Below, one piece after another: positions 19,219 through 34,820 of a stretch of DNA of 34,820 nt. The notes beneath the pieces are model-generated. The model was given only the letters and a program-made list of their open reading frames with translations. It was not told the origin of the DNA and made no database searches. Source of the stretch: a bacterium (GTDB lineage: Bacteria; Patescibacteriota; Minisyncoccia; UBA6257; GWB1-50-10); NCBI GenBank assembly GCA_002686365.1, contig NZBZ01000004.1, forward strand, positions 162,752 to 197,571, written 5' to 3'. The first letter of the stretch is position 1, and each line of letters opens with the position of its first letter. Both the position numbers and the translations under genes were made by a program.

Positions 19219-19248
19219 TCGGCAGCTTTCATTAGTTGCCGATTTTTT
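19219..19248 (+). terminator. Intrinsic terminator
   Basis: TCGGCAGCT and AGTTGCCGA (one G-T pair) are followed by six T. It separates the membrane gene from the convergent PspC gene. Confidence 0.85.
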
Positions 19249-21062
19249 ATTCAAAGGAGCGGTCTATTTTTGCCTCTTCTTGGGGGATCTGTTTTATATA
19301 TCCTGCTCCTGAAATTTCCTGTGTGACATTTACTGCCTCGCCTATGTAGGAGAGTTTGCTTGCTCCGGAGAGAATAGTATTGAGCGAGTTCTCTATGTTC
19401 GCAGTAATACTTGATGCTCCTGATGCAGTTATTTTTGCGTCTAAGATTCTAAATTCATATCCGCTTACATGTGATGCTCCGCTTAAATCCATGTCTAGTG
19501 TTTTTGTTTCACCAACGAGTTTTATTTTTGATGCGCCTGATGCCCTGAAAGTTGTTGTGGTATTTTTTAGACTTGCCAATAGGCTTGTTGCTCCGCTTAG
19601 TGATATGTCTATTTTGTCACTTTCAAATTCAGTTACTACTCCCTCAATGTTTCCGCTTAGTTCGAGTTCTTTAAGCAGGGGAGTGGTTATTGTGATTTCC
19701 GCGCCATCTTTTATTGGGCAGAAGAAGAAGCAGAATTTGTATGGCCGTTCGAGTTCCACATTTAGCGTGTTGTCTTCGTCTACTTCTATTTCTGTGCGTT
19801 CGTGTGCCTCTTCAGAGTCGAGCACTGTGATTGTTTGCTTGTCTCCATGATGTATTAGCGCTTTTAAGTTGTATCCTTCTAAGGATGCGATAGAGAACTC
19901 ATCAAGATTTTCGTATTTTACTTCATACTTTTCACTATCGGATAGTTCTATTGACGCGTCATATATGCCCTGCTCGATTCTTGGGATATGAATGGCGCCG
20001 AGCGCGAATGCAAATGTCAGGGCAACTATCCAGACAAAGATTAGTTGCAGCATTACTGGTGTTGTAAATCGATTTTTTTTCTGCAGTATGCTGATGCCCA
20101 TAAGCATAATGACAAGCAAAGGGACGAGTATGACCAGATATGCTGCTATGAATAGAATGATTGAGAGTGTTCCTGAAGATGTTATTGAGTTTAATATGGC
20201 GAGCACTTCGGGCTGCATGCTTATGGCTTCTTTGCTTACAAGAAGGGTTATTGTAGCTGCTGTTATTCCTGCAATGCTGAAGACCGCGCTTATAAATAGG
20301 GCAATGCCTAAGATGATGCGAATTGGTTCGAAGATAATTTTAAATATTAGTCCTATTATCTGAAATATTTTTTGTAGTACTCCGCGTTTTTCTTTTTTTG
20401 GTGCTGGTTCTTTTTCTCCGTCTTCTTCGCGGTCGTGCTTGTTGGCGTTTTTCCTGTTTTTTATTTTTTCTACGCTTTCTTCTACGATTTTGCTGATTTT
20501 CGCAATGGTTACTTCTTCACCACGCATTTCCAGCTTTTGCGCAGTGGTTTCTGCTTTTGGGACTATGAGTGCAAGGATGATGTAGAGGATTACTCCGAAT
20601 CCGCCAAAGAAGATTGAGATTGCAAAGAGTAGGCGGACGATTGTGGTGTCTATGCCAATGTATGCAGCAATGCCTGATGCAACACCTGCGATAATTTTGT
20701 CGTCAGAGTCTCTGTGTAGGCGTCTTGTGTTTTGGGTTTTTGTTTGCGGTTCTTCTGGCGTGCCGTATTCTTCAAAGTCTTCTGGTTTTCCCATGGCGTG
20801 AATTATGTCTTCTACATGAGAGATAGAGATTGCGCTCTTTTCGTTTTTCCTTTTCGTAATTAGTTTTTCTGCAATACTCGTTTCAATATCTTCGATAATT
20901 TCTTCTGACTCTTCTTTTTCCGCAAAGTGTTTTCTAATTGATTCGAGGTAGTTCTCAAAAGTGTTTTCTAATTGATTCGAGGTAGTTCTCAAGTTTTTTG
21001 TATGCGTCTTCTTCTACTGCGAATACTATTCCTCCAATTGTTATGTTAACTATTTTTTTCAT
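19247..21062 (-). pseudogene. PspC-domain membrane protein with putative-adhesin (DUF2807) C-terminus, broken by a 34-bp tandem duplication
   Basis: The natural start is the ATG at 21060-21062, giving MKKIVNITIGGIVFAVEEDA and KKLENYLESIRKHF, then a TGA at 20955-20957. The stop is created by an exact tandem duplication (20924-20957 and 20958-20991); with one copy removed the frame continues into AEKEESEEIIEDIETSIAEKL, as expected. As it stands only a TTG at 20992 could open the rest (581 residues). That part has a PspC domain (DKIIAGVASGIAAYIGID, near residues 96-150), further membrane helices, and a C-terminal beta-solenoid of GAS repeats (LSGATS, ASGASK, LSGASH, LSGASKLSYIG) typical of DUF2807. 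It would be an envelope stress or surface protein. It overlaps the padR gene by 17 bases, forming an operon. Confidence 0.88.
20924..20991. repeat. Exact 34-bp tandem duplication inside the pspC-like gene
   Basis: Two identical 34-bp units lie head to tail. Because 34 is not a multiple of three, the second copy shifts the frame and produces a TGA after 35 codons. Confidence 0.95.
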
Positions 21063-21405
21063 TATTTTTGATTAGTGCGTTAATTGAATTATTTAGACCT
21101 TTCCACACGCTTTCTAATTGTTTTAAGATTTCTCTTCCTTTGCGTGTGAGTGTGTAGTACTTGCGCGGCGGTCCGCTTTTTGACTCCTCCCAAGTGTATT
21201 CGACGAGCCCCAGATGACGCAGTCGGCTAAGGAGGGGATAGAGAGTGCCCTCAACTATGATGAGGTCGGCCTTTTTCAGCTTTTTTATAATGTCAGAGGC
21301 GTAGCTTCTGCCTTCTGCAATGATAAGGAGGACAGGGAACTCGAGGATTCCTTTTCTAATTTGCGCCTTTGCATTTTCTAAGTCAAATTCTTCTTTTTTG
21401 TTCAT
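21046..21405 (-). CDS. PadR-family transcriptional regulator
   Basis: 119 residues. The PadR winged-helix signature is clear: ILEFPVLLIIAEGRSYASDII (helix and recognition region), VEGTLYPLLSRLRHLGLVEY, then PPRKYYTLTRKGREIL on the wing. The C-terminal helix for dimerisation is short, as in the PadR-s2 group. It lies just upstream of, and overlaps, the PspC/adhesin-like gene, the usual pairing in which PadR controls a membrane-stress partner. The -10-like GATACT (21414-21419, reverse strand) is eight bases before the ATG. A ten-base inverted repeat (21419-21451) overlaps the promoter and is the probable autoregulatory operator. Confidence 0.92.
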   Translation of the reverse strand: MNKKEEFDLENAKAQIRKGILEFPVLLIIAEGRSYASDIIKKLKKADLIIVEGTLYPLLSRLRHLGLVEYTWEESKSGPPRKYYTLTRKGREILKQLESVWKGLNNSINALIKNNEKNS

Positions 21406-21556: not shown

Positions 21557-21814
21557 TTACAGAAGGGGGGTGGTCTTGATGCTCCCGGCCGGTCGAATCT
21601 TGATTCCGGGAATGAAGCTGAACGAGACGGGGGTGGTCTTGATGCTCCCTGTTGGCCAGATCCTTACTCGGCCATGTTCCGTGTGGATCGGGGGGTCCCA
21701 AACCCTGCGCACTTCTCCTTGAGATCTATCCCTGGGTCTTCCAGGACAGAATGGATAGAATGTACCCGTTCCCCACCTTGGGTCTTCCGGGATTTCCGTG
21801 GCTGCTTTTTTCAT
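21557..21814 (-). CDS. Small protein with two GSIKTTP repeats, unknown function
   Basis: 85 residues from the ATG at 21814. The C-terminal half contains a repeated strand-like pattern: RVRIWPTGSIKTTP and IKIRPAGSIKTTP, separated by VSFSFIPG. A TTGACA (21886-21891) with a 17-base spacer to TAAAGA lies upstream on the same strand, and a good terminator follows, which together favour this strand over overlapping plus-strand frames. Codons end mostly in C or G, unlike the surrounding genes. No known family. Moderately sure it is real. Confidence 0.5.
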   Translation of the reverse strand: MKKAATEIPEDPRWGTGTFYPFCPGRPRDRSQGEVRRVWDPPIHTEHGRVRIWPTGSIKTTPVSFSFIPGIKIRPAGSIKTTPLL

Positions 21815-32014: not shown

Positions 32015-32653
32015 ATGGCCTTAGTAGATAGAGGTGCGCTTTGTTCGCTCTTGCTAAAGGAAGATCCTCCAAAAGGTCTCGTCACAGATGTGATGGGGCA
32101 CCTCGGACACTTCTTTGTGGCAGCAGAGAGTGGTAAGTACCCTCTTGGGTCCGTAGGAGATGTTGACCTCGAGGCGGTGAAAACAGCCGTAATGGGGGTA
32201 ACGGGGAATAACGTCACAAGGATTATCCCGATCTCCATCAGCAGTCTATTCCCCTGGCCGGAGTGGATGGGTGAGGATGCATACAAAGCTATTCTCAGGG
32301 ACAGTCTCAAGGTCAGCTTCAGGCAAAGCCTCGAGGACATCCTCAGGTACAACTTCTGGGTAAGGGTTGGTGACAGCCTCAAGGACGACCTCAGGAACAA
32401 TCTCTGGGACAGTCTCAAGGTCAGCCTCGAGAGTAGTCTCAGTGTCATCCTCGATGACAGCCTCAGGGACAGCCTCAGGGACAGCCTCGGGGACAGCATC
32501 TGGATCAGCCTATTTTATGCATTAGAGTTCGTCCTAGCAGGGCAGGAGGAGCAAGCGAGAAAGTTCTTTGCCCTTTTGGATGCCTGGAATGGCATTCTCA
32601 TTCTCGGCGAAAAAGGAGACGAGCCAGGAGTTTGGCTCATCCTCGTCGCCTAA
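32015..32653 (+). CDS. Protein with DSL tetrapeptide repeats, unknown function
   Basis: 212 residues from the ATG at 32015, eight bases after GGAGG. The N-terminal ~85 residues look like a compact alpha/beta domain. Residues about 92-165 consist of D/x-S-L-x tetrads (RDSLKVSFRQSLEDIL, KDDLRNNLWDSLKVSLESSL, DDSLRDSLRDSLGDS), encoded by 12-base units such as GACAGCCTCAGG, some nearly identical. Such repeats form an unusual short-period helical or solenoid structure and occur in other bacterial and phage proteins of unknown role. A C-terminal helix and strand follow (LFYALEFVLAGQEEQARKFF). It lies between repeats C and D. Confidence 0.7.
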   Translation: MALVDRGALCSLLLKEDPPKGLVTDVMGHLGHFFVAAESGKYPLGSVGDVDLEAVKTAVMGVTGNNVTRIIPISISSLFPWPEWMGEDAYKAILRDSLKVSFRQSLEDILRYNFWVRVGDSLKDDLRNNLWDSLKVSLESSLSVILDDSLRDSLRDSLGDSIWISLFYALEFVLAGQEEQARKFFALLDAWNGILILGEKGDEPGVWLILVA

Positions 32654-32845: not shown

Positions 32846-34820
32846 TAGAAAATCCAAATTTTCTAAAAAAGAAGTATGATCTCCACAATGAGCCAGAGGT
32901 GGAGTCTGCAGTAAAAAGAAAGGAAGCAAGAACAGGAGAAAAGGTATCAGGAGCCCCAGAGGCAAAGATCCAAACATATTTGGATAGATTCGGTGAGATA
33001 CTAGAAAGAGAAGATGAGGAGAAGAGAGAGCGTGGATTAGAGGCGATAAAGAAGGTATTACACAAGCAGTTTGTTATCAAGCCGGAAGAGGTGCCGGATG
33101 GATATTTTGAGAATCAAAGACGAATAGCACGGGAGCAGGGACATGGAGATGTAGAGATAAGCGATGAGATTCGTGATCAGTTGACAGAGGTTATCGTAAC
33201 GGATCAGGAAAGTTCACTCGACAAGTGGGTGGACTACTTTGCGTCTCAAGATGCTATGTATCCTGATTGGCTAAAGTATTATGCCACACGAAGTATCCTC
33301 AGCATGGGGGAGTATGACAAGGAGAAGAAGCAGTTTACAAAGCGATCAAAAGGGACTGTAAAACCATTTCCAGACTTAAACCGTGAGGCTCTCGCATACG
33401 TACTTGACGCTATTGAGAAGAAGTACGAGGGAGAGCAGACAAGCCTTGCCGCATTTGAGGCAGAAGACAAGGAGGCGTTCGACAAGTTACTTCAGGGGGA
33501 AAACTTCGGAAAGCTCTACGCTTGGGCAATTGACAAGGTTACTCCGGACTCGGTTGGTCAACTCTCTGTTACCCAAGGCGCATGGGTGATGTATGACCAG
33601 AACTCCGACCATATGCCGCTCGTAGAATCTCTTCAGGGGCATGGTACGGGTTGGTGTACTGTGGGGGAGTCAACCGCCCAAACCCAGCTTGAGACTGGAG
33701 ACTTCCATGTTTATTACTCTCTTGACGAAGACGGTAAACCTACTATTCCTCGAGTTGCTATCCGGATGGAGGAAGGGAGTATTGCCGAAGTTCGTGGCGT
33801 TGCTCCGGAACAGAACCTTGATCCGTATATCACGTCTATCGTTCAGGAGAAGCTTGATGAGTTTCCAGATGGTAAGGAGTATGAGAAAAAGGTAGAAGAT
33901 ATGAAACGACTGACAGAGTTAGAAAAAAGACAGACTGATGGAGAGGTATTTGACGTTGAAGATTTGAAGTTTCTTTATGAGACGGAAGGGCAGGTACAAG
34001 GATTTGGATATGACAAAGATCCAAGAATTAGTGAGATGCAGGGAATAAGAGACGGGAGGCAGGATTATGCCGATATTTTTCAATGTAAGAGAGAGGAGGT
34101 TGCCATAACGCAGGATGAGTTAAGTGATCATACTATTGTTTTTGGCAGAAATTTGGATCTTCGGAATTCCCAGACCCAGGAACTTCCCGCAGGTCTTACT
34201 CATATTAGTGGAGGTCTCTATCTTGAAGGTAGTCAGCTCAAAGAACTTCCCGCAGGTCTTACTCATATTGGTGGAGGTCTCTATCTTGAAGGTAGTCAGC
34301 TCAAAGAACTTCCCGCAGGTCTTACTCATATTGGTGGAGGTTTGGATCTTCAGGATTCCCAGATCCAGGAACTCCCCGCAGGTCTTACTCATATTGGTGG
34401 AAGTTTGGCTCTTCGGAATTCCCAGATCCAGGAATTTCCTGCAGGTCTTACCCATATTGGTGGAGGTCTCTATCTTGAAGGTAGTCAGCTTAAGGGGTTA
34501 CCAGAAGGATTAACGCATATTGGCGGAAGGTTGGATCTTCGGAATTCCCAGATCCAGGAACTTCCCGCAGGTCTTACTCATATTGGTGGAGGTCTCAATC
34601 TTCAAGGTAGTCAGCTCAAAGAACTCCCCGCAGGTCTTACTCATATTGGTGGAGATCTAAGTCTTGAAGGTAGTCGGCTCAAAGAGCTTCCCGCAGGTCT
34701 TACTCATATTGGTCTAGATCTAAATCTTCAAGGTAGTCAGCTCAAAGAGCTTCCCGCAGGTCTTACTCATATTGGTGGAAATTTAAGTCTTGAAGGTAGT
34801 CAGCTCAAAGAACTCCCCGC
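32842..34820 (+). CDS. Large protein with WCT-containing core and C-terminal 21-residue leucine-rich repeats, 3' truncated by the window
   Basis: At least 659 residues; open to the right edge. The N-terminal 170 residues are charged and helical. A core from about residue 175 contains FGKLYAWAIDKVTPDSVGQL, then GHGTGWCTVGESTAQTQLETG with W271-C272-T273, FHVYYSLDEDGKPTIPRVAIR and IAEVRGVAPEQNLDPYI. This arrangement is seen in uncharacterised CPR proteins and is loosely like PcfJ-type cores. From residue 436 at least ten 21-residue repeats follow, consensus GGLxLEGSQLKELPAGLTHIG, a leucine-rich-repeat pattern like those of bacterial LPX effectors. TATACT lies six bases before the ATG. No signal peptide is present. 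The role is unknown; binding of proteins by the LRR part is likely. Confidence 0.8.
   Translation, partial: MIENPNFLKKKYDLHNEPEVESAVKRKEARTGEKVSGAPEAKIQTYLDRFGEILEREDEEKRERGLEAIKKVLHKQFVIKPEEVPDGYFENQRRIAREQGHGDVEISDEIRDQLTEVIVTDQESSLDKWVDYFASQDAMYPDWLKYYATRSILSMGEYDKEKKQFTKRSKGTVKPFPDLNREALAYVLDAIEKKYEGEQTSLAAFEAEDKEAFDKLLQGENFGKLYAWAIDKVTPDSVGQLSVTQGAWVMYDQNSDHMPLVESLQGHGTGWCTVGESTAQTQLETGDFHVYYSLDEDGKPTIPRVAIRMEEGSIAEVRGVAPEQNLDPYITSIVQEKLDEFPDGKEYEKKVEDMKRLTELEKRQTDGEVFDVEDLKFLYETEGQVQGFGYDKDPRISEMQGIRDGRQDYADIFQCKREEVAITQDELSDHTIVFGRNLDLRNSQTQELPAGLTHISGGLYLEGSQLKELPAGLTHIGGGLYLEGSQLKELPAGLTHIGGGLDLQDSQIQELPAGLTHIGGSLALRNSQIQEFPAGLTHIGGGLYLEGSQLKGLPEGLTHIGGRLDLRNSQIQELPAGLTHIGGGLNLQGSQLKELPAGLTHIGGDLSLEGSRLKELPAGLTHIGLDLNLQGSQLKELPAGLTHIGGNLSLEGSQLKELP
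34147..34820 (+). repeat. Tandem 63-bp coding repeats (21-residue LRR units)
   Basis: Ten full units and part of an eleventh are visible, several identical or nearly identical at DNA level (for example the second and third), and the array continues past the window. Variation is concentrated at the x of GxLxL and at SQ(L/I)(K/Q). Confidence 0.95.

Follow-up and report, generated by a model that had tools for sequence, protein, structure and literature searches.

The stretch of DNA analyzed here (the window, 34,820 nucleotides) is the end of a 197,571-bp contig (G000:C4:162752-197571) in a draft assembly of 888 kb and 21 contigs, with an estimated genome completeness of 91.5%. The host is an uncultured, small-genome bacterium of the Patescibacteria (Parcubacteria-like); its genus is this single genome, and comparison rests on distant relatives. 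On the minus strand of the window we observed a gene for a regulator of the PadR type and, overlapping its end, a PspC gene whose reading frame is interrupted near the 5' end by a tandem duplication. The features to which we refer below are the following.

19247..20992, minus strand: the rest of the PspC gene in a shifted frame, a 581-aa ORF with HAAS, PspC, LiaI-LiaF-TM and DUF2807/Toastrack domains (from the ORF, Pfam and profile positions 23-80)
20924..20957: copy A of the 34-bp duplication, the downstream copy relative to the minus-strand gene (TRF and repeat search)
20954..20963, minus strand: the duplication junction CACTTTTGAG, TTT followed by TGA, a candidate +1 slip site (TTT to TTT) into the downstream frame (from the sequence)
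20955..21062, minus strand: the 5' fragment of the PspC gene, comprising ATG, 35 codons and TGA (translation; profile positions 1-35, 54 bits)
20958..20991: copy B of the 34-bp duplication, the upstream copy relative to the minus-strand gene (TRF and repeat search)
21046..21405, minus strand: padR, a PadR-like winged-helix regulator of 119 aa (Pfam PadR, 1.6e-19)

The duplicated segment, AAAGTGTTTTCTAATTGATTCGAGGTAGTTCTCA, is present in two exact copies, for which TRF and a repeat search agreed on 100% identity and 0 indels, as the initial annotation had stated. By TRF and by direct check the array extends from 20924 to 20992 and identity at period 34 continues for 35 bp, so that the breakpoints share 1 bp of microhomology. 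Since the longest identity at any one period in 30 mononucleotide shuffles of the window was only 13 bp, the duplication is not attributable to chance. We found no inverted repeats at or near the breakpoints, which rules out a hairpin there, and no further repeats near the duplication. Repeats of other kinds were seen at other positions in the window: a 21-bp direct repeat (GGTGGTCTTGATGCTCCC core) with 63-bp spacing at 21566-21649, between padR and a cold-shock gene; an array of 17 imperfect copies of a 12-bp unit at 32294-32511; and, at 34152-34820, 63-bp tandem repeats of leucine-rich type (189-bp higher order), which reach the contig end and are probably where the assembly stopped.

Translation of the minus-strand frame from the ATG at 21062-21060 gave 35 codons followed by TGA at 20957-20955, in agreement with the earlier proposal that the duplication brings about this stop; the overlap of the gene start with padR, also proposed earlier, amounts to 17 nt. 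We read TGA as a stop codon because it terminates 77 of 427 long ORFs in this genome and because the genome has an RF2-like gene that encodes the SPF motif, and an alternative genetic code was rejected on these grounds. The RF2-like gene itself (L198 1516-2211; G000:C20:109398-110096) encodes 231 aa, matches the prfB model from position 105 and seems to be without the N-terminal domain; a tRNA-like sequence lies upstream of it. The TTG with which the 581-aa ORF begins is a mechanical start only. We found no second intact copy of the gene elsewhere in the genome, and promoter and terminator scans near the locus returned nothing above chance.

With regard to the product, Pfam matches in the 581-aa frame all exceed the curated cut-offs: HAAS at 3.8e-6 (27.6 bits, cut-off 27), PspC at 1.8e-22, LiaI-LiaF-TM_PspC at 2.5e-11 and DUF2807 at 4.2e-23. 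The domain order is that of two full-length relatives, L059 and L060, both of which have padR just upstream of the gene; in L059 a weak match to the Toastrack family DUF4097 runs across the stretch that matches DUF2807. The N-terminal HAAS domain, read in the shifted frame, has its GxP motif (GKP within MGKPEDF) and adjoins a stand-alone gene for a PadR-like winged helix-turn-helix protein, and the duplication falls in the first HAAS helix. A dyad of HAAS and PadR has been described (PMC11237479), in which HAAS is proposed to relay a membrane signal to PadR via a groove at the GxP motif and Toastrack is viewed as a platform on which complexes assemble close to the membrane. Judged by its domains, the product is a HAAS-PspC-LiaI/LiaF-TM-DUF2807 (Toastrack) sensor paired with PadR, one theme of the envelope-stress dyad, whose domains it shares in the same order and with a stand-alone padR beside the gene; it differs from that described system in that its HAAS coding region is, in the assembly, interrupted by the duplication. 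The gene had initially been labelled PspC/adhesin. The first half of this label holds; the second is unsafe, because "auto-transporter adhesin" is merely the Pfam wording for DUF2807, which resembles the Toastrack group, and the protein as a whole looks more like a sensor partner of PadR than like an exposed antigen.

A scan of GTDB genomes yielded 80 loci, mostly from Bacteroidota and some from Patescibacteria (Falkowbacteria, Doudnabacteria, Parcubacteria), which with L059 and L060 made 82, and 81 of these have a clear N-terminus (L120 was left out). Judging by their identical N-termini, L059 and L080, and likewise L060 and L082, are probably the same genomes. The relatives are all distant, at about 25-45% identity, and among 244 genomes of the order no homologue exceeded about 29%. 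All 81 share a start of the form MKK..x.IxxGG..F.IEEDAY..L..YL..I..HF that runs on uninterrupted, and a duplication comparable to the present one occurs at none of these gene starts; in one relative a 16-bp repeat was noted, lying upstream of the start region. A PadR motif overlaps the gene or lies just upstream in 59 of the 82 loci. We also built a profile from the N-termini of 79 relatives and compared it with the minus-strand translations at the gene start, taking pieces of all three frames. The 35-aa peptide matches positions 1-35 (54 bits), and positions 23-80 (62 bits) are matched by the shifted frame; positions 23-35, common to both fragments, correspond to the duplicated stretch. Because no relative has the duplication and the two fragments overlap on the profile, the single-copy gene start is, by this comparison, ancestral and the duplication derived. 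These data bear out the earlier view that the start overlapping padR belongs to the original intact form; a different start common to the relatives is ruled out, as they begin at the MKK motif, and the contrary case envisaged earlier, in which all relatives would share the duplication and a different start, did not obtain in the 81 examined. Neither half of the gene has decayed, as is expected of a recent event, and we infer on this account that the duplication is recent. Full-length homologues number three, the present one included, in the 244 genomes of the order; this marks the gene as accessory and fits a patchy, dispensable gene whose knock-out would be tolerable.

We asked how often such duplications occur, counting those exact tandem duplications that are 18 bp or longer and not divisible by 3 in length, with low-complexity runs on one contig set aside. 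The whole assembly contains three, namely the 34-bp case described here, one of 20 bp that is intergenic and one of 35 bp that is palindromic and lies in ksgA, and none was found in 0.73 Mb (partly Ns) from 20 relatives. With only three cases in the genome and none in the relatives, the event is sporadic and not systematic, and systematic duplication by the assembly is ruled out. The 35-bp case (L008, G000:C5, 13954-14024) consists of a unit with the palindrome CCTGCCTGCCGGCAGGCAGG, present twice inside a ksgA-like ORF that stays open across the doubled unit, reading ...KALPAGRQVKAIKPCLPAGRYKL...; its 18-bp core occurs nowhere else in the genome. Short arrays of related 8-bp units (ATATCGAG, TATCTCGA and ATATCGAT) were also seen on separate contigs of the same genome (L031 8182, L052 15890 and L053 19241).

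The explanation that we favor, and to which we would give about an even chance, is that an accessory, dispensable sensor gene was recently inactivated by a sporadic duplication. The lesion is exact, out of frame, placed in a gene that is otherwise intact and absent from the relatives, as is typical of spontaneous inactivating duplications. An error of assembly, which the initial annotation had itself named as the alternative, is a close rival to real mutation, somewhat less probable in our judgment: contig ends overlapping by 34 bp may have been joined unmerged, or a local error may have doubled the segment, the gene being whole in the cells. The duplication is known from one assembled draft sequence of 21 contigs, and the intact gene body away from the junction, both halves of which fit the family profile, is as compatible with an undamaged gene in the cells as with a recent mutation. 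Such errors are, moreover, common in uncurated metagenome-assembled genomes, for which Chen et al. 2020 (PMC7111523) described local assembly errors, duplicated overlaps at scaffold joins and wrong repeat numbers, including 13 local errors in one CPR genome of 1.13 Mb. On the other hand, the junction is free of Ns, the few Ns of this genome being elsewhere, and the series of similar out-of-frame duplications that a systematic joining fault would give is not seen. Also, the 34-bp unit is shorter than the usual final k-mers, so that a de Bruijn assembler should have built the junction only from reads that cross it. The initial annotation had instead proposed phase variation, that is, slipped-strand switching selected on an envelope protein, with one copy on and two copies off. 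An envelope-stress gene broken near its 5' end, with reversal possible in principle, is in keeping with this, and precedents exist in pneumococcal capsule genes (Waite 2001, 2003, as cited in PMC4022640) and in penA (PMC4169377). However, simple-sequence-repeat contingency loci, which the present locus resembles in that an envelope gene contains a tandem repeat close to its 5' end, carry many short units, in a tract found in both on and off alleles and at the same place in related strains or species, whereas here there are two 34-bp units only and no relative of the 81, all at about 25-45% identity, has a repeat at that place. Since a single-copy allele would share 1 bp between the breakpoints and have no other repeats nearby, the duplication should arise rarely, and with it any switch from on to off, whereas its loss by slippage should be easier and more frequent. 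The single assembled sequence shows one allele, that with two copies, and the protein resembles a sensor and not an exposed antigen. The proposed layout is thus unsupported, and we consider phase variation very improbable.

It may also be asked whether the two-copy gene is functional as it stands, through a +1 slip at TTT/TGA that would double the first HAAS helix, or through restart at the TTG at 20992 or the ATG at 20794. The length of the unit invites the first of these suggestions: 34 is 33+1, so that one +1 slip restores the frame, and the TTTT at the junction permits perfect re-pairing. With TTTT read as one step the junction stays open, reading KHF-ENYLESIRKHF-AEK, and a slip at CAC TTT TGA would cause 11 residues of the first HAAS helix to appear twice. 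Yet TTT precedes TGA at the level expected by chance (4 of 127, against a codon use of 3.3%) and is not depleted there; the prfB-like gene is open and without an internal TGA, and no +1 shift is known in this genome. The slip site was made by the duplication itself and is not conserved, and in place of the conserved shift site and overlapping frames that mark programmed +1 frameshifting, the relatives have continuous genes. As for restart, the TTG and the ATG are both in frame downstream, but neither is preceded by a strong Shine-Dalgarno sequence; a start at the ATG would fall at the GxP motif, with loss of the first 2 HAAS helices, and initiation at either codon would give an altered or mostly missing HAAS domain. 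A near-full-length protein made through a +1 slip is speculative, and a functional two-copy gene by any of these routes appears to us very unlikely, if slightly less so than phase variation. Least probable of all is the composite possibility that gain and loss of the 34 bp switches the PadR-coupled sensor while the two-copy form leaks near-full-length sensor by a +1 slip at TTT/TGA.

If the sporadic duplication is real, we suppose that its origin is recent and that a rare event of slippage or end joining, using 1 bp of microhomology, created it within the HAAS coding region. The frame would be shifted and translation would end after 35 codons, leaving PadR uncoupled from its membrane sensor; that the DNA of the cells is truly two-copy, that the protein is not made and that there is a regulatory effect, we infer. 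The frame would be regained whenever slippage removed one copy, and if this duplication behaves like measured ones of similar size, the frequency should be on the order of 1e-6 to 1e-5. Tandem duplications within ORFs do arise spontaneously and revert. Two-copy duplications of 9-60 bp that arose de novo within penA of Burkholderia thailandensis had reversion frequencies between about 1e-6 and 4e-5 (a 60-bp unit reverted at 3.6e-5 and a shorter one at 9.3e-7), although with the selected ones the enzyme was still active and had an altered range of substrates, whereas here the frame is broken (PMC4169377). The pneumococcal capsule genes, as reported through PMC4022640 from Waite 2001 and 2003, are alike in that a duplication within the ORF interrupts the gene and can be lost again by slippage, and differ in that reversible switching of a surface polysaccharide was measured in culture, against one assembled sequence in the present case. 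On the best reading, reversibility at this locus would be passive and mainly in one direction, that of copy loss, and not an evolved switch.

Neither a real mutation nor an error would be very surprising. If the duplication is an error, it teaches caution: a gene of a draft genome should not be called broken or phase-variable until the reads have been examined. If it is real, the locus shows a sensor gene in the course of its loss, passively and reversibly, in a reduced-genome lineage in which accessory genes of this type come and go.
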